Both the position numbers and the translations under genes were made by a program. This document shows positions 1-58,934 of a stretch of 64,000 nt of DNA, one piece after another. The stretch comes from Bryobacterales bacterium KBS 96 (GTDB taxonomy: Bacteria > Acidobacteriota > Terriglobia > Bryobacterales > Bryobacteraceae): contig KB906767.1 in the NCBI GenBank assembly GCA_000381625.1, positions 1,590,629 to 1,654,628 on the forward strand. The letters run 5' to 3'. The notes below the pieces were generated by a model. It searched no databases, was not told where the DNA came from, and saw nothing but the letters and a program-made list of their open reading frames with translations. How positions within the stretch are numbered: the stretch's first letter is position 1; every line of letters starts with the position of its first letter.

Positions 1-440
1 TAGCCGCGCCACCCGGCCGGCGGCAGTTCACGGTGGACGCCAAGCCACCAGGAAGACACGCAAGAATGTGCAACGACAACCACTGGAGTGTTCCATTTAC
101 AGGCCGCGTTCGCGTATCCGTTCAGGTGAACGATCTCGGGCCTAACGCGCGCTGCCAAACTCCTCAGCCATGCCCCGGATTCCTGTATAGCTCCGTCCGA
201 TAAATTAGGCATCCATTCCAAGGGAAACGGGCTCTCAATCAGTTCCAACTTCTTCACGGCCGTGGCTCGTAAGCGCTGCGCGTCGGTCGGCGCCGGTCCC
301 ATAGTCGCAAGCACCACTGCAATGTCAAACCGGGAGAACTGCTCAGCGAGGTCGATCGCGTATGTCCAGACACCTCCCACCGCATCCGCGGTCATGAGGA
401 CACGTTTCGGCAGTCCTTGCGGTATTTGGCTATCGGGCAT
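1..440 (-). CDS. Glycosyltransferase family 4, N-terminal part (runs off the window)
   Basis: The minus frame from the ATG at 440 is open to the window edge, giving 146 residues. It begins MPDSQIPQGLPKRVLMTADA and continues GGVWTYAIDLAEQ, the usual N-terminal Rossmann start of GT-B glycosyltransferases: a strand, a glycine pair, then a helix. RPEIVHLNGYANAA resembles the D-x-(I/V)-H-x-N/H strand of GT4 enzymes. The catalytic C-terminal half lies outside, so donor and acceptor cannot be named. Its start overlaps the stop of the upstream radical SAM gene by 11 bases, so it is very likely translated as the last visible gene of the same operon. Confidence 0.8.
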   Translation of the reverse strand, partial: MPDSQIPQGLPKRVLMTADAVGGVWTYAIDLAEQFSRFDIAVVLATMGPAPTDAQRLRATAVKKLELIESPFPLEWMPNLSDGAIQESGAWLRSLAARVRPEIVHLNGYANAACKWNTPVVVVAHSCVSSWWLGVHRELPPAGWRG

Positions 441-1716
441 TCCGCGGCAGCTCCAGTTGCGTAAGTGGGGCGGGTTGCGCGGACTGGATGTCACTAAAGC
501 TCTCGAAATCTCCCAGATAATGTGCGTGCGCGCGCTCCCAAGCCAAGTCGTCCGGTTGTCCCCATCGGCGCGTATATTCGGGAGATCCGGGATACGGAAA
601 CAAAGGCACCGGCTTGTTGGCCCAGACTCCGCTAGTAATTAGTTGCTCGCGCCACCTTTCCACTTCCTGATCATCGTCCTCGTCCACACGAATGAGATTG
701 GCCTGGACAAAAGGAATTTTTCGTTTGGCATACATCAGCCGGTCCGCCAGTTCCGATGTATCCATGCGACACTTTTTGTCCAGATACTCACGGCCCGACT
801 CAGTGATGCTCTCGACACCCGCCTCCACTGAGACACAATGCGCCGCCGCAAGCATGTCCAGGGTTTCTTCATTCCAGAGGTCGATACGGGTCTGGATGCC
901 GATCTTCACATCCAGATTTGCGAGAGCTCGCAGCAGGTCCTTTTGCGGCAAGAAGATTTCGTCAATAAAGTAGATATATTCCACGCCCTGCTCGATCAGG
1001 GCCGCCATCTCGTCGACTACGACGCCAGTCGGCCGCCGGCGGTACTTGTTGCGAAAATTCTCTTTGGCACAGAACGTGCAGCTATAAGGACAACCCCGGG
1101 ATGCCTCCACTTCCGCGCCCGGCCTTTCCGGGGTGGCTTCAAATCGGTGATGATGATGCGAATGGCGATTTACATATTCATCCGGCCAGCGCAGTCCCGG
1201 TAGCTTCTGCATATCGGAGTAGTGCGGGCCTCCGCGAATCACAACTTCATCGCCGCTTCGATAGCAGATGGAAGGAATCTCACTCCAGCTCGATGTCAGC
1301 CGCGGAAGAATCTCTTCCGGTTCTCCCAGGATCACAACATCAGCCGCCAATTTATTCAGCGCCGCCGCCGGAGTCGTTGAGCCATGCGGTCCGACGACGA
1401 CAACAGTCCCGGCATCCCGGCCAAGAGCGCCAATCGTCAATTGCGGTATCCGCAATTCAGGGGGAGCACATCGCCAAAATAGATAGGATGGCGCCGTTGT
1501 CACGACTGTGAAATCCGGTTTCATACCAGCGACGGCGCACCGGATATCTTCGAGTGTCTTTCCGCCTAGCTGGCCATCGATAGTCAGAGCTTCGTGGCCT
1601 TCCGCTTCCAATGCCGCTTTGGCGTATCCGAACTCCAGAGGCAGATGCGGCTCCTGGCATCCAAAATAAATGCTGTCTCGGAAATCCCAAGGAGGATTGA
1701 TTAATGCAAAGCGCAT
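430..1716 (-). CDS. B12-binding-domain radical SAM protein
   Basis: Residues 1-140 form a cobalamin-binding-type Rossmann domain starting MRFALINPPW, with the LEFGYAKAALEAEGHE helix. They are followed by the radical SAM core with the CxxxCxxC cluster motif in RGCPYSCTFCAKENF. The family makes 5'-deoxyadenosyl radicals at a [4Fe-4S] cluster, often for methylation or rearrangement. The ATG at 1716 was preferred to the upstream in-frame start at 1767 because it has GGAAAGAGAG just upstream and begins exactly at the conserved domain. It overlaps the preceding epimerase gene by 16 bases. From memory, similar B12-rSAM genes recur in clusters with the same epimerase, methyltransferase and nucleotidyltransferase neighbours. 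The actual substrate is unknown, presumably a nucleotide-linked or lipid-linked sugar. Confidence 0.9.
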   Translation of the reverse strand: MRFALINPPWDFRDSIYFGCQEPHLPLEFGYAKAALEAEGHEALTIDGQLGGKTLEDIRCAVAGMKPDFTVVTTAPSYLFWRCAPPELRIPQLTIGALGRDAGTVVVVGPHGSTTPAAALNKLAADVVILGEPEEILPRLTSSWSEIPSICYRSGDEVVIRGGPHYSDMQKLPGLRWPDEYVNRHSHHHHRFEATPERPGAEVEASRGCPYSCTFCAKENFRNKYRRRPTGVVVDEMAALIEQGVEYIYFIDEIFLPQKDLLRALANLDVKIGIQTRIDLWNEETLDMLAAAHCVSVEAGVESITESGREYLDKKCRMDTSELADRLMYAKRKIPFVQANLIRVDEDDDQEVERWREQLITSGVWANKPVPLFPYPGSPEYTRRWGQPDDLAWERAHAHYLGDFESFSDIQSAQPAPLTQLELPRNAR

Positions 1717-2771
1717 TCCGGCTCTCTTTCCGCAATTTCGTTGACGCCTTGCTCCAAAGTCATCCAAGAAATCATCTGTTGTACGCTTTCAGAAATGGTC
1801 ACGGTGGGCCGCCACCGTGTCGCTTCTGTAAAGCGGGAATGGTCGGAAACATACCAGAGCTGATCGCCGACACGCGCCGGGGCAAACGAAATCATGGGGC
1901 GGCATTTCGTTAGGCCGCAGACGATATCCAGCAACTCCAGAACGCTCGTCGTCTGATTTGGTCCGCCCCCAATGTTGAACGCGCGATGCTGCACAGCAAC
2001 GCTGGGCCGTTCCAACAGTCGAAAGGCTCTGACAAGGTCTCCGACGTATAGAACATCGCGGACCTGGCGGCCATCGCCATAAATCGTGATCGGCTGGCCG
2101 GCAAGCACGCGCCGAATGAAGTGCGCCACCCACCCTTGATCCTCGGTTCCTTGCTGATGGGGACCGCAGATGCAACTCATTCGGAACACCACTGTTGGCA
2201 CATTGAAGCACCGGCCGTAATCGATCACATACTGGTCCGCGCTTCCTTTAGAACAACCATAGGGGGAATGGAAGTCGAGATGTTGCCGTTCGCTGACGCC
2301 GCTTGCCGCAAGTCCGGAATCCTCGGGCTCATAGCGCGACGGTCGTTTCGATAACGGAATCTCGTTGAGCGAGCCGTACACTTTGTTCGTGGATGTGTAC
2401 ACAAGAGCCGGTTTGTGGGACGCATTTCGAATCGCCTCCAGCACGTTAAGCGTGCCCTCGGTATTTACTCGATGGTCGGAAAGCGGATCGACGAGGCTCG
2501 TCGTAACTGCCACCTGCGCCGCGAAATGATAGACGCTATCCGCATCCAGTACGGCGTCGCGGACCGCGCGGCCATCCGTGACGTCTGCCTGTATAAAGCG
2601 CAACGCGTCGGAGAATTGTCCCCGTAGCCATTGCAGATTGTTGATAGTTCCGGGCCGGCTCAGGTTATCGAGAAGAGTGACGCGATAGCCGTCGCTCAGA
2701 TAGCTGGCCGCAAGATTCGTTCCAATGAAACCCGCGCCGCCGGTAATGAGAATTCGTGACTTATGCGCCAT
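1701..2771 (-). CDS. NAD-dependent sugar-nucleotide epimerase, CDP-paratose 2-epimerase-like
   Basis: This is an extended short-chain dehydrogenase of 356 residues. The NAD-binding GGAGFIGTNL motif sits near residue 11. The catalytic YxxxK is in FHSPYGCSKGSADQY, with STNKVYG as the Ser/Thr strand. The stretch RMSCICGPHQQGTEDQGWVA is characteristic of the CDP-paratose/CDP-tyvelose 2-epimerase (RfbE/Tyv) branch rather than GalE. The family interconverts C2 or C4 epimers through a transient keto sugar. It lies 2 bases downstream of the second epimerase (2774-3886) and overlaps the radical SAM gene, so the three form a tightly coupled block. The exact nucleotide sugar is inferred from similarity only. 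Confidence 0.9.
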   Translation of the reverse strand: MAHKSRILITGGAGFIGTNLAASYLSDGYRVTLLDNLSRPGTINNLQWLRGQFSDALRFIQADVTDGRAVRDAVLDADSVYHFAAQVAVTTSLVDPLSDHRVNTEGTLNVLEAIRNASHKPALVYTSTNKVYGSLNEIPLSKRPSRYEPEDSGLAASGVSERQHLDFHSPYGCSKGSADQYVIDYGRCFNVPTVVFRMSCICGPHQQGTEDQGWVAHFIRRVLAGQPITIYGDGRQVRDVLYVGDLVRAFRLLERPSVAVQHRAFNIGGGPNQTTSVLELLDIVCGLTKCRPMISFAPARVGDQLWYVSDHSRFTEATRWRPTVTISESVQQMISWMTLEQGVNEIAEREPECALH

Positions 2772-2773
2772 GG

Positions 2774-3886
2774 TTAAACCACCAATCCCCTTCCAGCTAG
2801 TTCGGCTTGCATTTCCTGGAAATTGTCGTGGGCTTGTTGTTCGGAAAGCCAGGCCGCCAAATCTTCAAGGCCCAATTCGAGCGTCACTGCCGGCGAATAT
2901 CCGAGTACTTTTTTCGCGAGCGATATATCTGGGTAACAATGGCGGATGTCTCCCACACGGTAGTTACCTGTTATTTCGGGTTCAACGTCTTTATCCAGAA
3001 CAGCCGCAAGGCGTTCAGCAATCTGCCGAATAGTGATGGTTTCGCCGCTGCCGATATTGACCGCAACGTCCGCAGCATCCGATTCCAGAGCCAGACGGCA
3101 CGCCCGGGCCACGTCATACACACTTACAAAATCTCTGAGTTGCGCGCCATCTTCGAAAATCATCGGCCTTTGGTTATTCAACAGGCGCGATGCGAAGATG
3201 GCGAGTACTCCCGTGTATGGATTCGAGAGCGCCTGATTTGGACCATAGACGTTAAAGAATCTCAACGCAACCGTGGGAACGCCGTATGCTCTCCCGGTTA
3301 TAAGGCACATCTGCTCCTGGTCGAATTTCGATAAGGCATAGATTGAAGCCAGGGCAGGCGTTTTCCATTCGGGCGTCGGCAGAGGTCGCAGCACTTGCCC
3401 GCCGGAAGTCTTCATTTCCCATTCGTGACATCGCAATTGCTCAACCGTGCGCCCCGCGGTTGTGCAGATCTCGCCGCTGGGCAACTCGTAGAGACCCTCA
3501 CCGTAGACGCTCATGCTTGACGCCACGATGAGCTTTCTTATTCGCTTCTTTGCGACTCTTTCAAGCAGCATGGCCGTGCCAAGATTGTTGACGCTCGTGT
3601 ACTGTTCAATCTGATACATGCTCTGACCGACACCAACCAAAGCAACGAAGTGATAGACCGCCACAACCCCGTTTAATGCGCGATCGAGAACATCGGCATC
3701 GCGGATATCTCCACGAATCAGTTCAACATCCTCGTGCAGGTAGCATGGCCGCTTTCGATCGGCTCCGTGAACCTGCGACGCCAAGGCATCCAGCACACGG
3801 ACACGATAGCCATGTGCAAGCAATTCATTAGCTACATGGGAACCGATAAACCCGGCTCCCCCGGTAATCAGCACTGTTTGGCTCAT
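2774..3886 (-). CDS. NAD-dependent epimerase, dTDP-L-rhamnose 4-epimerase-like
   Basis: An extended SDR of 370 residues with GGAGFIGSHVANEL at the N terminus, YHFVALVGVGQSMYQIEQY, SSMSVYGEG and YALSKFDQEQM (YxxxK). The RFFNVYGPNQALSNPYTGV segment and the roughly 35-residue insert containing EMKTSGGQVLRPLPTPEWKT between the Ser strand and YxxxK resemble WbiB-type dTDP-rhamnose/6-deoxytalose epimerases. The ATG at 3886 starts directly at the Rossmann strand. A longer form from 3928 adds 14 residues without domain content and is less likely. It is the first gene after a 357-base gap and so may have its own promoter. Confidence 0.88.
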   Translation of the reverse strand: MSQTVLITGGAGFIGSHVANELLAHGYRVRVLDALASQVHGADRKRPCYLHEDVELIRGDIRDADVLDRALNGVVAVYHFVALVGVGQSMYQIEQYTSVNNLGTAMLLERVAKKRIRKLIVASSMSVYGEGLYELPSGEICTTAGRTVEQLRCHEWEMKTSGGQVLRPLPTPEWKTPALASIYALSKFDQEQMCLITGRAYGVPTVALRFFNVYGPNQALSNPYTGVLAIFASRLLNNQRPMIFEDGAQLRDFVSVYDVARACRLALESDAADVAVNIGSGETITIRQIAERLAAVLDKDVEPEITGNYRVGDIRHCYPDISLAKKVLGYSPAVTLELGLEDLAAWLSEQQAHDNFQEMQAELAGRGLVV

Positions 3887-4243
3887 AGATTTCTCATTTC
3901 GCGAAATAAGGCAAGAAATGTTAACCACAGCTCCGAGCGGCTGCTAACCGTTACTTGAACCGACGTTCCGCGAGCGTTTGTTCGCGGCGATCAATGTACT
4001 TCTCTGATGTAGTTGAATTCACGACAAATAGACCGAGACTGTTTGTACCCCGTTACACGCCAAGCTACAAACCCGGTAAACCTACGGTGTTCTACAACAG
4101 GCTATACGGCACGCAATTTGCGCGCTCGACGGTCACATTTGAGCTCATCCTGGGACAAACACGTGGATTTTGCGTCCTTCGCTTGCAAACCAAAAGAGCG
4201 AACATGCCAGTTTTGTCAGGTTCGTTGTGTGGAGAAAATTGAA
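3887..4243. other. Intergenic gap inside the glycan operon
   Basis: No convincing reading frame is present on either strand. At 3968-3987 there is an 8-bp hairpin (CCGCGAGC, loop GTTT, GTTCGCGG; one G-T wobble) with no U-run after it on either strand, so it is not a clear terminator. The region is more AT-rich than the flanking genes and probably carries a promoter for the epimerase-epimerase-rSAM-glycosyltransferase half of the cluster. I could not single out a -35/-10 pair with confidence. Confidence 0.4.
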
Positions 4244-5131
4244 TCAATTCGCGTATCGGCGAGTCATTCGCGCGCAGAAGTCCGCGAACTCATCCGGTGC
4301 TTGGGGCGGGCTCGTGTGATGAGGCCGCAGCCCCTTATGTTCAGGAGTAAAACAAAAAGTCAAGGTGACGTCGAACGGTTCGAGCGTACGCATCTGATGA
4401 TCGAACCAACGCTGTGCATCCGGCCGCTCGCTGTCTGCCCAACTGAGTCCCGTTCGCAGCCGGCGTACCCCCAGATCTCGCATGATGCGGACGGCTTCAT
4501 CCAAACGCGGATCTTCGAAATGGAACCACTGGCAAATTCCAACTGCCGGAGTGAATTCATGGAAAGCATGAAATGCTCTCTTCGGCACCGCATCTTGCCG
4601 GATCAACCCCATGTAGAAGTGCCGGTAATATGACGATCCTTCCGCTTCACGATGCCGGGTTGTCGCCGGCCACTCCTTCGGAAGATCCAGAAGGCTATAC
4701 CAGTGAATGTGATCGGCCAACGGCATCAGCAGATCCGCCGTTCTTTTTAGGCCGAACTCCTGGACTTCCTCGGCGCCAAACGATGAGACTCCGACTTCCG
4801 ATACCCAGACAGGTTTTTCGGTAACGGCACGAATTTCTGCCAGTTTATTTGGCCACTCATCAATACTCCAGTGATTCCAATCCAGAGGAAACCCGTGTAC
4901 CGCGACAGCATCCACCTCGTCGATGACTTCAAGCTTCTTCATGCGCTCCATGAAGATCGGATCGATAGGCGAGATTCCGCCCAGAACTCTTGTCAGTTTC
5001 GGGCTTTCCGATCCGACCGCCACCGCCGCCCGCCGCACCATTTCTGCAAATAGAGTCCAATCTTGATCGAGTTCAAAATCCCAATGTGAAAGATTGTTCG
5101 GCTCGTTCCAGAGCATCACAGCTTCGATCAT
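4244..5131 (-). CDS. GH39/beta-xylosidase-like protein with apparently permuted TIM barrel
   Basis: About 295 residues from the ATG at 5131, 4 bases after the methyltransferase stop; an ATG at 5167 is the alternative. The protein begins almost directly with MLWNEPNN, the clan GH-A strand-4 acid/base motif. It continues to VWVSEVGVSSFG (strand-7 nucleophile motif) and HIHWYSLLDLP (strand 8). Only then, in the C-terminal third, come segments that normally open the barrel: RIMRDLGVRRLRTGLSW, DVTLTFCFTPEH and FADFCARMTRRYAN. The GH39-like protein at 57447-58934 has the equivalents in the usual order (LRTLGAEYVRYVPW, ILNFSTIPAW, YFARLVGWY, then WEVLNEID). There is no signal peptide, so it acts in the cytoplasm. 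Its place between methyltransferase and epimerase genes suggests a role in glycan assembly rather than degradation. Confidence 0.75.
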   Translation of the reverse strand: MIEAVMLWNEPNNLSHWDFELDQDWTLFAEMVRRAAVAVGSESPKLTRVLGGISPIDPIFMERMKKLEVIDEVDAVAVHGFPLDWNHWSIDEWPNKLAEIRAVTEKPVWVSEVGVSSFGAEEVQEFGLKRTADLLMPLADHIHWYSLLDLPKEWPATTRHREAEGSSYYRHFYMGLIRQDAVPKRAFHAFHEFTPAVGICQWFHFEDPRLDEAVRIMRDLGVRRLRTGLSWADSERPDAQRWFDHQMRTLEPFDVTLTFCFTPEHKGLRPHHTSPPQAPDEFADFCARMTRRYAN

Positions 5132-5135
5132 TGGC

Positions 5136-5906
5136 CTAGTTACATCCTTTGAGCCCGGAGCGGGCATCCTTGTCTGTAGCCAGCTTGCACACAAATACAT
5201 CCAGATCCGGCGAGCAGATAATGGAAAATCCCGCGCTGCGCAACATGGCCTGTGCACAGGCGCGATTTGGAATCCACCAGTTTGTTGGATCGTGAGCGTA
5301 GCTCTTCTCAACAAAATACATTGCCGGATAGCTTGGCTCTGTAAAAATGCCCTCCTCGCTGAACGGATAATCTTCGTCGAAACCGTTTACTTCCTGGCTT
5401 CCCCTCGTCAGCGATTGGAAGATAAACGATCCTTTGACAACATGCTCGGCCAGAGTATCCAGAGCCAGCAACGGGTAACGCAAATGATACATCACGCCCA
5501 TAAACAGGACAATGTCGAATTTCTCGCCGAGTTTTGCCACGTCGTATACCGACATTTCGTCAAACTCGACATCGACCTGGCTGACCTCGGCCGCAAATCT
5601 GGCTTGCGCCAGATACGCTGGATCGAAGTCAATGCCAAGCACCCGCCGGGCGCCTCGCTTCTTCAGTTCAATTGAATAAAAACCGGCGTTGCAGCCAATG
5701 TCGAGAACGCTTTTCCCACTCAGGTCTTCGGGAATTACCTTCCGAAGATGCCGCCATTTTATATTCGGATAGTCCCCGAGGAAATGATCCGGCGCCGTTT
5801 GAACTCCGTTCAAATTCAAGTTATGAAACCAGGGTCCAAGGTCCTGAATTCTGGTCCGGATAGACAATTGCCGGTCCGTTTGGGTTCTCGTATTTATCGT
5901 TTTCAT
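5136..5906 (-). CDS. SAM-dependent methyltransferase (CmoB-like fold, TIGR04290-like)
   Basis: 256 residues. The SAM-binding motif I is SVLDIGCNAGFYSIEL, followed by the acidic end of strand 2 in VLGIDFDPAYLAQA and the motif IV region FDIVLFMGVMYHLRYPL. The N-terminal WFHNLNLNG and the C-terminal WWIPNRACAQAMLRSAGF patches are those of CmoB-like proteins. The non-tRNA branch, recalled as the Rta_06860 family, occurs in sugar clusters such as this one. The start ATG overlaps the stop of the nucleotidyltransferase gene by 4 bases (ATGA), showing translational coupling. A methylated deoxysugar or glycan end-cap is the most likely product; a tRNA target is less likely given the neighbours. Confidence 0.88.
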   Translation of the reverse strand: MKTINTRTQTDRQLSIRTRIQDLGPWFHNLNLNGVQTAPDHFLGDYPNIKWRHLRKVIPEDLSGKSVLDIGCNAGFYSIELKKRGARRVLGIDFDPAYLAQARFAAEVSQVDVEFDEMSVYDVAKLGEKFDIVLFMGVMYHLRYPLLALDTLAEHVVKGSFIFQSLTRGSQEVNGFDEDYPFSEEGIFTEPSYPAMYFVEKSYAHDPTNWWIPNRACAQAMLRSAGFSIICSPDLDVFVCKLATDKDARSGLKGCN

Positions 5907-6649
5907 GAGGCTTCGCAGAGCAAGCGTTCGGCATCACGGCGCGCCGCCAACATGCGCAGAGCTTCGTGGTACCCGCGCAATGTCCCTACATCTACGTAGG
6001 AGGCACCCGCTTTGATTCCGGAAACGCGCCCTCCTTGTGAGAGATATTCATTGATCACTGTCCCGAGATATTCGTCCCGTGACTCTAACCAAAGACGATG
6101 CAGATCGTTGAGGATGCCTCCCGTCATCTTCATCGCTCCCCAAATCCACGTTGTGTCGGGATTTGATTGCTTTACCTGTACCTCGATCACATCTCCGCGC
6201 GAATCGGTGACAACCGCGTCGAAGTGTTGCGGTTGCGAAACGGGAAAGAGCAACAGCGACAATATCCCATCGGGCAACTGCTTTAGGCCGTTCTCCGGGA
6301 ACCAGACTGTATCGGGCAGTCCAATGCAGACATGCTCGTTTGCGGGGATAAGCGGCAGCGCTCTGAATATGGCGTCGCATAGTCCCAGCGCTTTCTCTTG
6401 GACACAATAGAATATCTGCGCGCCGAGCGCCGAGCCGCCGAAATAGTTCACGATGTCGGCTTTACCAGGCGCAATGATAAAGCAGACTTTTTCGATTCCC
6501 CCTGCAACCATGCGTTCAAGCAGATACTCACTTACTGCTCGCGGCCGCTCATAGCAGTCGGAATGTCCACTAAGAGGAAGCAACTCTTTTGAAAATGCCA
6601 GTGGCTGGATACGGCTTCCAATACCGGCGGCCGGAATAATGCCCCACAT
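5903..6649 (-). CDS. Sugar-phosphate nucleotidyltransferase
   Basis: 248 residues starting MWGIIPAAGIGSRIQPLAFS, the pyrophosphorylase signature of the RmlA/GalU type (GxGxR, then K in SKELLPL). EKALGLCDAIFRALP and CIGLPDTVWFP correspond to the base- and sugar-phosphate-binding segments, and ASYVDVGTLRGYHEAL is the typical C-terminal D-x-GT motif. It activates a hexose 1-phosphate as an NDP-sugar. The nucleotide cannot be told from sequence alone. It sits 2 bases downstream of the first glycosyltransferase and overlaps the methyltransferase, so it is a core operon member feeding the two epimerases. Confidence 0.9.
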   Translation of the reverse strand: MWGIIPAAGIGSRIQPLAFSKELLPLSGHSDCYERPRAVSEYLLERMVAGGIEKVCFIIAPGKADIVNYFGGSALGAQIFYCVQEKALGLCDAIFRALPLIPANEHVCIGLPDTVWFPENGLKQLPDGILSLLLFPVSQPQHFDAVVTDSRGDVIEVQVKQSNPDTTWIWGAMKMTGGILNDLHRLWLESRDEYLGTVINEYLSQGGRVSGIKAGASYVDVGTLRGYHEALRMLAARRDAERLLCEAS

Positions 6650-6651
6650 AC

Positions 6652-7761
6652 TTAAGCGCCTCCCGCTAATTCACAGACCGATTCGTTCGTGTCCACATTG
6701 AGGCACGATTCGAGCAGGTCGTTCAATTCAGCCGCGCGTACCGCCGCGGTATGGCACGCAAGCGTTCGTTCCCGCGCTCGGCTTGCGATTCGTGCGAGAT
6801 CCGCTTCGTCCGTCAGCACCGCTCGGCAGGAGTCTTCCCGTGAATCGGCAATCAGAATTTCCTCTCCGGGCGCGAAGAATTGGTCTAGGCCCGGCCACCA
6901 ATCGCTCAGAATGGCCGAACCGCATGCTGCCGCTTCGAACAGGCGTCCCGACGGGCAGTAGCCTTTTTCCGCCATGGATCCCCGAGTCAGGTTCAAGGTG
7001 ATTCTGGATGAAGAATAGAAATCGGCGTGTCGCCCGGGAACAATATGCTCGAAACGCTGGACGTTTGGGGTAACAGCAAGGGAGGGCGGATACATGGCGC
7101 CTGCAAGCACGAAACGTGCATTAGGAAGTAGCTCCGCCGGACGCAGCAACAGTTCCTCTAACTTGGCCTGACGGTCGGGAGCATAGGTGCCCAGATAAGA
7201 CAGGTCCGATGCAAATGCCTCGCACGAGGACCGGGGACAGTGTACGTCCGGATCGACACACCCGTACAGCGGCGCCACTCGCTTCGCGCCTAGCCGATCT
7301 CGTAATTCTACGAGGGCTTGGCCGCCGGTATAACTTAAGACAAGGTCGAAATTGCCTAATCCGTAATGAGGTAGATATCTAATGGCCTCTCCCTGCGATA
7401 GTTTGCTTAGAGTAACCGGGGTATCCAGATCGTAATAAGCAGACCGGCGAGCATTAGATTCCCACACTAACTCGGCGGCGACCGCGCCATCGGGGCAATA
7501 CGACGTGGTCATCCCGATATCGGCATCGTCAAGCTCCCTGCGAGCCTCCGCGCGCACCTGCTGCCAGTCGGAATAGTAGTGAATCCGCGCGCCCGCAACT
7601 GAACACGCGTCGCGATGGGCGCTGTAATAGGGCGTGTCTTTCTCAAAAAAATGGACGCAATAACCGAATCGCGCGAGCGACCGGAACAAACCGCGCCAAA
7701 GGGTGGCATGGCCGTTACCCCATGCAGAACTAACCGATAGGCCAAAGATGACTAGCTTCAT
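6652..7761 (-). CDS. CgeB-like glycosyltransferase (GT-B fold)
   Basis: 369 residues. The N terminus MKLVIFGLSVSSAWGNGHAT and the central SYLGTYAPDRQAKLEELLL mark the CgeB/YkvP-type glycosyltransferases. The C-terminal domain contains the nucleotide-sugar-binding patch CPSGRLFEAAACGSAILSD followed by PGEEILIADS, equivalent to the E-x7-E region of GT4 enzymes. It is the first gene of the cluster and is preceded by a strong hairpin in the leader (7766-7798). Acceptor and donor are unknown. Confidence 0.87.
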   Translation of the reverse strand: MKLVIFGLSVSSAWGNGHATLWRGLFRSLARFGYCVHFFEKDTPYYSAHRDACSVAGARIHYYSDWQQVRAEARRELDDADIGMTTSYCPDGAVAAELVWESNARRSAYYDLDTPVTLSKLSQGEAIRYLPHYGLGNFDLVLSYTGGQALVELRDRLGAKRVAPLYGCVDPDVHCPRSSCEAFASDLSYLGTYAPDRQAKLEELLLRPAELLPNARFVLAGAMYPPSLAVTPNVQRFEHIVPGRHADFYSSSRITLNLTRGSMAEKGYCPSGRLFEAAACGSAILSDWWPGLDQFFAPGEEILIADSREDSCRAVLTDEADLARIASRARERTLACHTAAVRAAELNDLLESCLNVDTNESVCELAGGA

Positions 7762-57446: not shown

Positions 57447-58934
57447 TCACTGTTTGGCTAACGTGACGATCGCCACGCCCAGCCCGTGCAACGTATATGT
57501 TTCGGCCTTTAGCGGTCGCGTTTCGGGTGGATTGGCTTTTGTGGTTTGATCCACAAATTGCACCTGCTCCGCTGGCCCAGGCAGTTTGATTAAGAAGTTG
57601 CGATTTCGCTTATTCACCAGCAGCAATTTGTGCGCGCCATCGTGAGTGATGAAACCAAGGGCGTAAACGTACGGACTTCCGCTCGAAGTCTCAACCAACT
57701 GATCGCCGGGAGAGAAGTTACTTTTCAATAGTTCGAGCACTCGATAACGCGGGTTCGGAGCCCCAGTGTTCCAATTCACCATTGAGACACTTGGAAACTG
57801 CGTCGGATATCCCACCAGTTGCGATTCGCCGGCCACGTCGATGCCCAACGTTGCGAGATTTCCGAAGACGTAAGCGTAGGTCGCGCCGGACAGATTCCAA
57901 TACGAAGCTGGAATTGGTTTCGTTACATGTCCCGGTTTGCCCTGCGAGAGATCGTCGGCCGATATGGACCCGATTTCGTCGACCGTCGTCTCCGTCGACG
58001 GAGAGAGGCGCTGCCGGATTGCATCGACGTACCGGGTGCTGGCAATGAAGCGGTCCGCCTGGTCGAAGAACGTGTATTGCTGTATCTCTAGCGATTGATC
58101 GGGCGTGGGAACCGCATAGAAATGGTAGGAAATCATGTCCAGCGGGATACCGGGCTTATGATTTCGTGGATTCAGAAAATACTCAAACATGTGCGGATCG
58201 TCCGAAGGAAAAGCCAGCGCCAACCCGACAAATTTCATGGCAGGCGCAACGCGCTTGATCGCGGAGACAATCGCATCGTAGCGGGCCGTATACTGCTCAG
58301 GAGTCATGTGATGCTCGATATCGATTTCGTTGAGCACCTCCCAATAAGGGATATTGAAGTGATGTCCGGATTCGTGGCGCTGGCCCAATTCATCCGTGAA
58401 ACCTCCGTCTACGTACCAGCCCACCAGACGCGCAAAGTAGTCACCCAGTTCTTTCATGGATGGATCGCGAAGTTCAGTCCCTTGCGTGTAGTCCCAAACT
58501 GCCTGATTCGGATCTTGCGGGTAAGCAACGGGCTTGGGGGTTGTGAACATCCAGGCCGGTATGGTGCTGAAATTCAGAATGACTTTATGCCCCTTGGTGG
58601 CATTCAGGAAGTCGAGCGTCATCGGATCGATAAGCGAAAAATCCCAGGACGTCTTGCCGTTCGCGGGCGGTTCGAGTTCCGCTACGCCCAACCGCGGATA
58701 AGGAAGCCACGGCACATAGCGCACATATTCGGCGCCTAATGTCCGCAGATCGGAAAACACGCGGTCGTGAATTTTCGATCCGCGCCGCAGCGGCGGGTTC
58801 ACAACAACCTGGAGTGTCGCGGTCGTGCGCGATATTCGAGTTACTTTATCCCAGTGAATATCGACCTTCTGTGCGAAGGCAAATTGCGTGATTCCCAAAG
58901 AGCAGAACAGAAGCACGCCAATGTTTCGAATCAT
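57447..58934 (-). CDS. Secreted GH39-like glycosidase
   Basis: 495 residues with a signal peptide (IGVLLFCSLGITQFAFAQ). The barrel runs in normal order: LRTLGAEYVRYVPWLPYPRL (strands 1-2), KVILNFSTIPAWMF (strand 3), YFARLVGWYVDGG (helix), IPYWEVLNEIDIEHHM with the acid/base Glu (strand 4), and ETTVDEIGSI with the candidate nucleophile Glu (strand 7). A C-terminal beta domain follows (GAHKLLLVNKRNRNFLIKLP). Activity on xylosides, arabinosides or related sugars is plausible. It is the last gene of the minus-strand sugar locus, 27 bases after the isomerase-like gene. Confidence 0.8.
   Translation of the reverse strand: MIRNIGVLLFCSLGITQFAFAQKVDIHWDKVTRISRTTATLQVVVNPPLRRGSKIHDRVFSDLRTLGAEYVRYVPWLPYPRLGVAELEPPANGKTSWDFSLIDPMTLDFLNATKGHKVILNFSTIPAWMFTTPKPVAYPQDPNQAVWDYTQGTELRDPSMKELGDYFARLVGWYVDGGFTDELGQRHESGHHFNIPYWEVLNEIDIEHHMTPEQYTARYDAIVSAIKRVAPAMKFVGLALAFPSDDPHMFEYFLNPRNHKPGIPLDMISYHFYAVPTPDQSLEIQQYTFFDQADRFIASTRYVDAIRQRLSPSTETTVDEIGSISADDLSQGKPGHVTKPIPASYWNLSGATYAYVFGNLATLGIDVAGESQLVGYPTQFPSVSMVNWNTGAPNPRYRVLELLKSNFSPGDQLVETSSGSPYVYALGFITHDGAHKLLLVNKRNRNFLIKLPGPAEQVQFVDQTTKANPPETRPLKAETYTLHGLGVAIVTLAKQ

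Follow-up and report, generated by a model that had tools for sequence, protein, structure and literature searches.

Catalytic TIM barrels that are circularly permuted in nature are, to our knowledge, rare, and the glycosidase case known to us is the derivation of GH70 from GH13. In outline, the catalytic (βα)8 barrel of the GH70 glucansucrases is a natural circular permutation of that of GH13, within a clan and with a chemistry other than those of clan GH-A. For clan GH-A, GH39 or PslG, we found no report of natural permutation in the openly licensed literature searched.

Among solved structures, the closest relative by sequence of the protein described here is PslG of Pseudomonas aeruginosa (PDB 4zn2, 5bx9), which is made together with polysaccharide synthesis genes. 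In a published account, PslG is a CAZy GH39 member with a signal peptide and a periplasmic form, and its catalytic residues are Glu165 and Glu276 (PMC11912335). A further point of reference is a gene cluster marked by TIGR04290 and TIGR04295, both of which are hypothetical equivalogs of NCBIfam. We know of no product or function for this cluster, and no paper naming either accession was found in the openly licensed literature searched.

The window, by which we mean the whole stretch of 64,000 nucleotides that was analysed, contains a gene that an earlier note, made from the letters of the DNA, had described as a circularly permuted GH39-like barrel within a glycan operon. Taken as a whole, we regard as very probable the explanation that this gene encodes a permuted GH39/PslG-like barrel of the retaining glycosidase type, produced by a single change and serving in glycan assembly in the cytosol.

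The locus and the swapped strand order

The features of the locus are the following.

430..1767, minus strand: TIGR04295 B12-binding radical SAM protein (684 bits, cut-off 400)
1701..2771, minus strand: SDR1, NDP-sugar epimerase/dehydratase (Pfam scan)
2774..3928, minus strand: SDR2, NDP-sugar epimerase/dehydratase (PF01370)
4244..5131, minus strand: permuted GH39/PslG-like (βα)8 protein of 295 aa (ORF, profile order, predicted structure)
4247..4543, minus strand: its C-terminal part, residues 197-295, homologous to β1-α3 (profile, strands, helix 279-293)
4544..4561, minus strand: joint between the old C-terminus (α8) and the old N-terminus (before β1), residues 191-196 (alignment gap)
4562..5131, minus strand: its N-terminal part, residues 1-190, homologous to β4-α8 of unpermuted GH-A barrels (profile, strands)
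4790..4801, minus strand: S111-E112-V113-G114 with the predicted nucleophile Glu112, aligned with PslG Glu276 (E112 in 89 of 89 rows)
5099..5107, minus strand: N9-E10-P11 with the predicted acid/base Glu10, aligned with PslG Glu165 (E10 in 89 of 89 rows)
5136..5906, minus strand: TIGR04290 methyltransferase (376 bits, cut-off 300), ending 4 nt before the start codon of the permuted gene
5903..6649, minus strand: sugar-phosphate nucleotidyltransferase (PF00483)
6652..7761, minus strand: glycosyltransferase, GTa (PF13524)

On the minus strand, the operon reads GTa, nucleotidyltransferase, TIGR04290 methyltransferase, permuted GH, SDR2, SDR1 and TIGR04295 B12-rSAM protein; past the latter come four more glycosyltransferases, the first spanning the window edge and three lying beyond it. 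Elsewhere, some relatives of SDR1 carry an unpermuted GH domain as an N-terminal fusion.

Among 80 loci of a genome collection, the neighbours of the permuted gene include the methyltransferase in 62, the nucleotidyltransferase in 46, GTa in 45, GTb and GTc in 43 each, GT4 in 41, a histidine phosphatase in 35, SDR2 in 27, rSAM in 26, a PIG-L deacetylase in 23, inositol-phosphate synthase and GNAT6 in 18 each, zinc dehydrogenase and Gfo/Idh in 16 each and UDP-GlcA decarboxylase in 8, all of which are lower bounds since the flanks reach at most 9 kb on each side and many loci are short. Each ORF was assigned to its best query, and counts for SDR1 and the fusion were left out because the two queries claim the same ORFs and that for the fusion matches the permuted gene itself in 80 of 80 loci. 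Automatic clustering of neighbouring ORFs includes antisense shadows, and only genes checked by profile or phmmer are cited here. At least one of nine core markers occurs in 76 of the 80 loci; in L043, L048, L049 and L076 none of the nine was found within the flanks. The sugar-nucleotide genes and glycosyltransferases around the permuted gene bear out the biosynthetic setting that the earlier note had proposed. Its emphasis on a B12-rSAM neighbourhood holds within the flanks of those 26 loci, the most faithful neighbour being the TIGR04290 methyltransferase.

Some clusters also hold genes for inositol-phosphate synthase, PIG-L deacetylase and GNAT6 acetyltransferase (L050:5131-6252, L089:4864-5601, L050:11430-12788), a set that recalls sugar-inositol cores of the mycothiol or GPI type. 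Just past the last glycosyltransferases of the window's operon, and on the same strand, a gene was found whose product has the C-terminal domain of alpha-L-arabinofuranosidases (PF06964; L096:8267-9961, minus strand); a 371-aa ORF without Pfam family separates it from the glycosyltransferases.

The order of the parts was compared with that in L014, an unpermuted acidobacterial GH whose genome also has a permuted gene. In a search of three proteins, positions 196-293 of the family profile in native order match residues 41-149 of L014 (7.7e-10) and positions 4-153 match residues 155-324 (5.1e-15), and tblastn with the single protein recovers the same two swapped pieces (3.7e-5 and 2.9e-12); adjacent in L014, the pieces are exchanged in the window protein, with the joint at 191-196 as the gap between the aligned pieces 7-190 and 197-293. 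Stepwise rotation of the profile took its highest score for a single domain of L014 from 43 to 88 bits, the peak of 85.8-87.7 bits being reached with breaks at 156-206, between β8 and β1, while breaks at 121-216 gave more than 82 bits and those at 1-111 at most 70.

PslG behaves in the same manner. Against the PDB, a native profile of 54 sequences places 198-293 on residues 22-128 and 2-166 on residues 131-303, together at E 2.2e-7, the pieces being weak singly (i-E 0.64 and 0.0055, respectively). Eight sequences in native order gave two stretches (E 2e-8), and the same eight after rotation gave a single one, 9-272 on 25-305, at E 8.9e-13; phmmer with a single native protein had no match in the PDB at E<=1. 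The Pfam family Glyco_hydro_cc covers the N-terminal part only, from profile position 67 of 237, and its score for the window protein rises from 21.5 to 25.9 bits after rotation. Swapped-order profile matches were obtained for nine of nine SDR fusions, for both pieces in L151-L155 and L157 of a second phylum and, weakly, for most remaining rows of distant relatives, L010 being matched in a single piece only. A candidate counter-example, L012, in which profile positions 155-228 match across the joint at 17 bits, was rejected as a chance match to a histidyl-tRNA synthetase, and profile matches under about 20 bits therefore mean little alone.

The AlphaFold model of the permuted protein (54 sequences; pLDDT 87.3, pTM 0.88) has strands at 2-7, 47-50, 75-79, 108-113, 142-145, 197-200, 224-230 and 254-260, with a helix after each and the last helix at 279-293, eight strand-helix units that make up a complete predicted (βα)8 barrel. 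The NEP segment comes first in this chain, but by homology it is β4 of a GH-A barrel and not strand 1 of a conventional one. With the swapped profile matches to L014, the rotation tests and the one-piece match to PslG, the predicted structure upholds the proposed permutation, and there is hardly any doubt left, in our judgement, that the window protein is a natural circular permutant of a GH39/PslG-like barrel.

As an unpermuted relative and internal control, the earlier note had offered the protein at 57447-58934. We dropped it, as it is without detectable similarity to the permuted protein of the window (BLASTP E 0.60; profile score below 0 at 58 of 59 rotations, which are all that reported); L014 and the SDR-fused domains of L050, L054, L065 and L069 are the better controls. 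In its own right, the protein at 57447-58934 is a weak GH39-like protein (PF01229, 21.9 bits against a cut-off of 26).

The unpermuted sister and the catalytic residues

In L050, L054, L065 and L069, a second ORF was matched in swapped order, namely one for an SDR that carries an unpermuted GH domain at its N-terminus, with full-sequence E-values of 7.3e-42 (L054), 3.8e-37 (L050) and 4.3e-36 (L065), and of 1.2e-61 for the Dyadobacter fusion of L069 (16652-18721), which was alone in its search. A fifth fusion (L132) comes from the Rufibacter genome of L076, and four more reside on plasmids of Rhizobium and Allorhizobium (L127-L130). The clusters of L127 and L128 comprise nucleotidyltransferase, Gfo/Idh, zinc dehydrogenase, SDR, glycosyltransferases and UDP-GlcA decarboxylase, and a TIGR04290 methyltransferase is annotated in that of L128; these two plasmid records have one matching place only, with no permuted gene in those replicons. 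Given the UDP-glucuronic acid decarboxylase in these Rhizobium clusters (L127:20447-21493, L128:14446-15492), the cluster product may contain xylose.

The SDR fusions share 29-40% identity, in two swapped pieces, with permuted proteins of the window's phylum. A tree was built from 55 rows, made up of 29 hand-chosen sequences of the 86 permuted ones, nine fusions and 17 other relatives. It groups the 29 permuted rows with support of 98/97, the nine fusions with 99/99 and both together with 98/97, leaving the 17 other rows outside, with the proviso that its bootstrap is unsettled (correlation 0.976) and that several outgroup rows have very long branches and unsure mutual places. A single origin of the permutation, beside the fusion and with the unpermuted order as the older one, is supported by these sequences but not proven.

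Glu10 and Glu112 align with chain positions 139 and 250 of PslG, a constant offset of 26 from 165 and 276. The earlier note had seen both in the window protein, in the NEP and SEVG motifs; they are kept in 89 of 89 permuted rows (three of them duplicates), in which Asn9, His79, Tyr145, Arg226 and Trp231 are invariant as well. The acid/base Glu follows an Asn on the β4 homologue and the nucleophile Glu lies on the β7 homologue, as in clan GH-A, and the sequential β1-β8 order of that clan is swapped: according to the predicted structure and the profile order, the catalytic Glu residues come, in chain order, on strands one and four instead of four and seven. With Pfam GH39 (PF01229), the native protein has no match at E<=1, and the rotated relative L006 scores 14.7 bits against a cut-off of 26. 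Since the chain order differs and the Pfam GH39 cut-off is not reached, we class the protein as a permuted member of clan GH-A that is related to GH39, rather than as a plain GH39 member. In several plasmid records, such as S. meliloti pSymB, the gene is annotated as a beta-xylosidase. R159, H160, R170 and H171, in or beside the low-confidence model loop 157-165, are also identical in 89 of 89 rows, and our guess is that they could hold phosphate.

Where PslG has an N-terminal signal peptide, the modelled chain opens directly at a barrel strand (E2-7), without room for a leader, and this one feature is our basis for placing the protein in the cytosol. We predict that it takes part in glycan assembly there as a retaining β-glycosidase or transglycosidase, and the conserved residues tip the balance slightly towards glycosidase chemistry. 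Such chemistry would proceed in the two retaining steps, Glu112 serving as the nucleophile and Glu10 as the acid/base. The substrate would be a sugar carried on a nucleotide or lipid, which the nucleotidyltransferase, SDR, methyltransferase, rSAM and glycosyltransferase genes nearby may provide, and the role of the protein is perhaps comparable to that of PslG in the Psl pathway.

The catalytic pair is E/E in 29 of 29 permuted tree rows and in six of the nine fusions, the others having E/A (L133, from the L065 genome, and L134, from the L050 genome) or H/Q (L135, from the L054 genome). Of the four fusion domains that share a locus with a permuted gene, three have lost the nucleophile, which implies that glycosidase chemistry is not required of every barrel here. 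These three fusions (L050:1658-4054, L054:1-1977, L065:3586-5811) carry Ala or Gln in place of the nucleophile Glu, and that of L054 has His in place of the acid/base Glu as well; they are likely dead barrels beside an intact permuted gene.

A permuted barrel that is no longer a hydrolase and serves instead as a cytosolic transglycosylase, or as a structural partner of an SDR acting on activated sugars, is a somewhat doubtful but real alternative. It draws on the covalent fusion of the sister form to an SDR, on the nucleophile loss in three of nine fusion domains, on the position of the gene among sugar-nucleotide genes and on the invariant charged R159, H160, R170 and H171, which could bind phosphate. 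Against this, the invariance of the Glu pair and of Asn9, His79, Tyr145, Arg226 and Trp231 suggests that glycosidase chemistry has been kept, with the reservation that transglycosylation uses the same residues and looks identical in sequence. A bolder proposal, to which we give limited credence, is that one pathway employs one GH-A barrel in two topologies, the SDR-tethered unpermuted form and a free permutant of one origin that has replaced or joined the fusion across phyla. The barrel would then be an obligate SDR partner, engaged in making or modifying a sugar attached to a nucleotide or lipid, perhaps through transglycosylation; the permutation would have freed it by moving the chain ends off the SDR side.

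For the permuted retaining glycosidase barrel that we prefer, one permutation event would suffice, the nearest relatives found being the SDR-fused unpermuted domains in similar gene clusters. The old termini, before β1 and after α8, are connected by a few linking residues, and the chain is open instead in the α3-β4 loop, so that it runs β4-β8, β1-β3 and α3 and has the catalytic Glu residues on its first and fourth strands. A probable mechanism is a tandem duplication that afterwards lost its two ends; among the relatives collected we found no tandem intermediate. A permuted ancestor, with the SDR-fused unpermuted form derived from it, is very improbable: among the sequences found, permuted ones far outnumber fused ones, but the genome-collection search used a permuted query, which favours them, and the more distant relatives with both pieces matched are unpermuted and fall outside both groups of the tree. 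With an unpermuted sister in similar, and sometimes the same, clusters, both the origin and the consequence of a barrel permutation become directly testable.

Gene integrity, spread and structure searches

The ORF of 295 aa runs on the minus strand from an ATG at 5131 to a stop codon at 4246-4244, and its product begins with MIEAVMLWNEPNN and ends with FADFCARMTRRYAN (last residues RRYAN). The earlier note had placed the strand-4 NEP motif first and the β1-β3 segments last in this ORF, and had both ends right. A longer ORF, 4244-5314 with a TTG start, was rejected, as it would enter the upstream methyltransferase gene, whose stop lies 4 nt from the ATG at 5131, the conserved start. The start codon has the identical place in 84 of 89 homologue rows, which consist of the window's own, eight from plasmid and phylum searches and the 80 genome-collection loci and which, with the duplicates L002/L024, L003/L019 and L004/L030, represent 86 sequences; the remaining five are offset by +4 (L003 and L019, one sequence) or -1 (L055, L063, L095). 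Homologue lengths range from 290 to 348, being exactly 295 in 36 of 89 rows.

The TIGR04290 methyltransferase gene is directly upstream (within 400 nt) in 58 of the 80 genome-collection loci and either overlaps the start or ends no more than 10 nt away in 44, so that no N-terminal domain appears to be missing. Nor is there any other sign of the lost upstream domain that the earlier note had raised as an objection to itself, with an in-frame stop at most 15 codons upstream of the start in 25 of 89 rows and a 4-nt overlap between the methyltransferase gene and the start in 26 of 80 loci. That the gene is a 3' fragment lacking an upstream domain, or a join of two unrelated pieces, is suggested by the late start of the match in Glyco_hydro_cc, which resembles that of a truncated gene, but is scarcely credible given the shared start, the 4-nt overlap, the eight strands within one confident model and the end-to-end match of both pieces to the same unpermuted proteins.

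Broken copies occur within the window's phylum: L009/L013 (G348) is a permuted gene split into two ORFs, corresponding to residues 98-136 and 140-294, and L011 (G325) is a remnant that retains pieces corresponding to residues 116-135 and 266-295. All alignments exclude them.

At least 588 stretches of the genome collection encode a relative. The best 80, in which the order was checked, share 67-74% identity and cover residues 1 or 2 to at least 286; the 78 with an assigned phylum belong to 11 phyla, led by Acidobacteriota (30), Pseudomonadota (17) and Myxococcota (16). Of 396 genomes of the window's phylum, 12 gave a match, and eight of these matches, with the window's own among them, are full length and permuted. 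Among plasmids, 146 records matched; in 97 of them a single place covers 80% or more of the query, and 66 of the 146 are from Sinorhizobium. The permuted gene is thus kept at about 70% identity in the best 80 loci and across at least 11 phyla, and the common start in 84 of 89 rows agrees with the stable, conserved permutation of fixed order that had been proposed.

A model of the unpermuted Dyadobacter sister, from four sequences only (pLDDT 75.3, pTM 0.80), has its strands in canonical order at 15-18, 43-49, 74-80, 119-122, 160-163, 188-193, 224-230 and 256-260. With this model, Foldseek returned PslG as the first match (E 1.8e-15, TMq 0.71) among 347 matches at E<=0.001, and VIA returned β-glucosidases of the GH1 type (Z 23.7). 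With the permuted model, Foldseek gave six matches at E<=0.001 and mixed TIM barrels, mandelate oxidase being first (E 5.1e-4), and VIA gave whole-barrel alignments to GH20, GH84 and epimerase chains (Z up to 13.3). Neither program listed GH39 or PslG among the 50 best matches of the permuted model, although 3emc (GH10) at rank 34 of Foldseek and the Cel5A structure 5hpc at rank 50 of VIA are single clan GH-A members. The order of the units is the clear difference between the two models, which differ in sequence and quality too, and since the absence of GH39 is expected from a permuted chain, we do not take it as a sign of a different fold. An unrelated TIM barrel that resembles GH-A by convergence and bears an NEP-like motif on a true first strand might account for top matches to oxidases, aldolases, decarboxylases and GH20/GH84 and for the lack of GH39 among the 50 best listed. 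This reading is scarcely tenable, however, when both parts show sequence homology, in swapped order, to proteins of the GH39 kind and GH39 is recovered by the unpermuted sister in that structure search. Such a family can escape notice, in that a sequential structure search with the permuted model lacks, among the 50 best matches, the GH39 relationship that the unpermuted sister reveals at once.

Comparison with known systems

PslG is an unpermuted chain of 416 residues, and the window protein is permuted and has 295. A sister group in similar gene clusters is formed by the SDR-fused GH domain (Dyadobacter L069, Rhizobium L127 and L128), which has the canonical strand order, is tied to an SDR and has lost the nucleophile in three of nine cases, whereas the permuted form is free, swapped and E/E. 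The new element here is this SDR-fused unpermuted sister, found in similar clusters and sometimes beside the permuted gene. With the TIGR04290/TIGR04295 cluster, the locus shares both markers, above cut-off and beside the permuted gene.

With GH70 and GH13, the likeness lies in the natural circular permutation of a catalytic (βα)8 barrel, and the window protein has no match to either family in a Pfam scan at E<=1. The present case is from clan GH-A.
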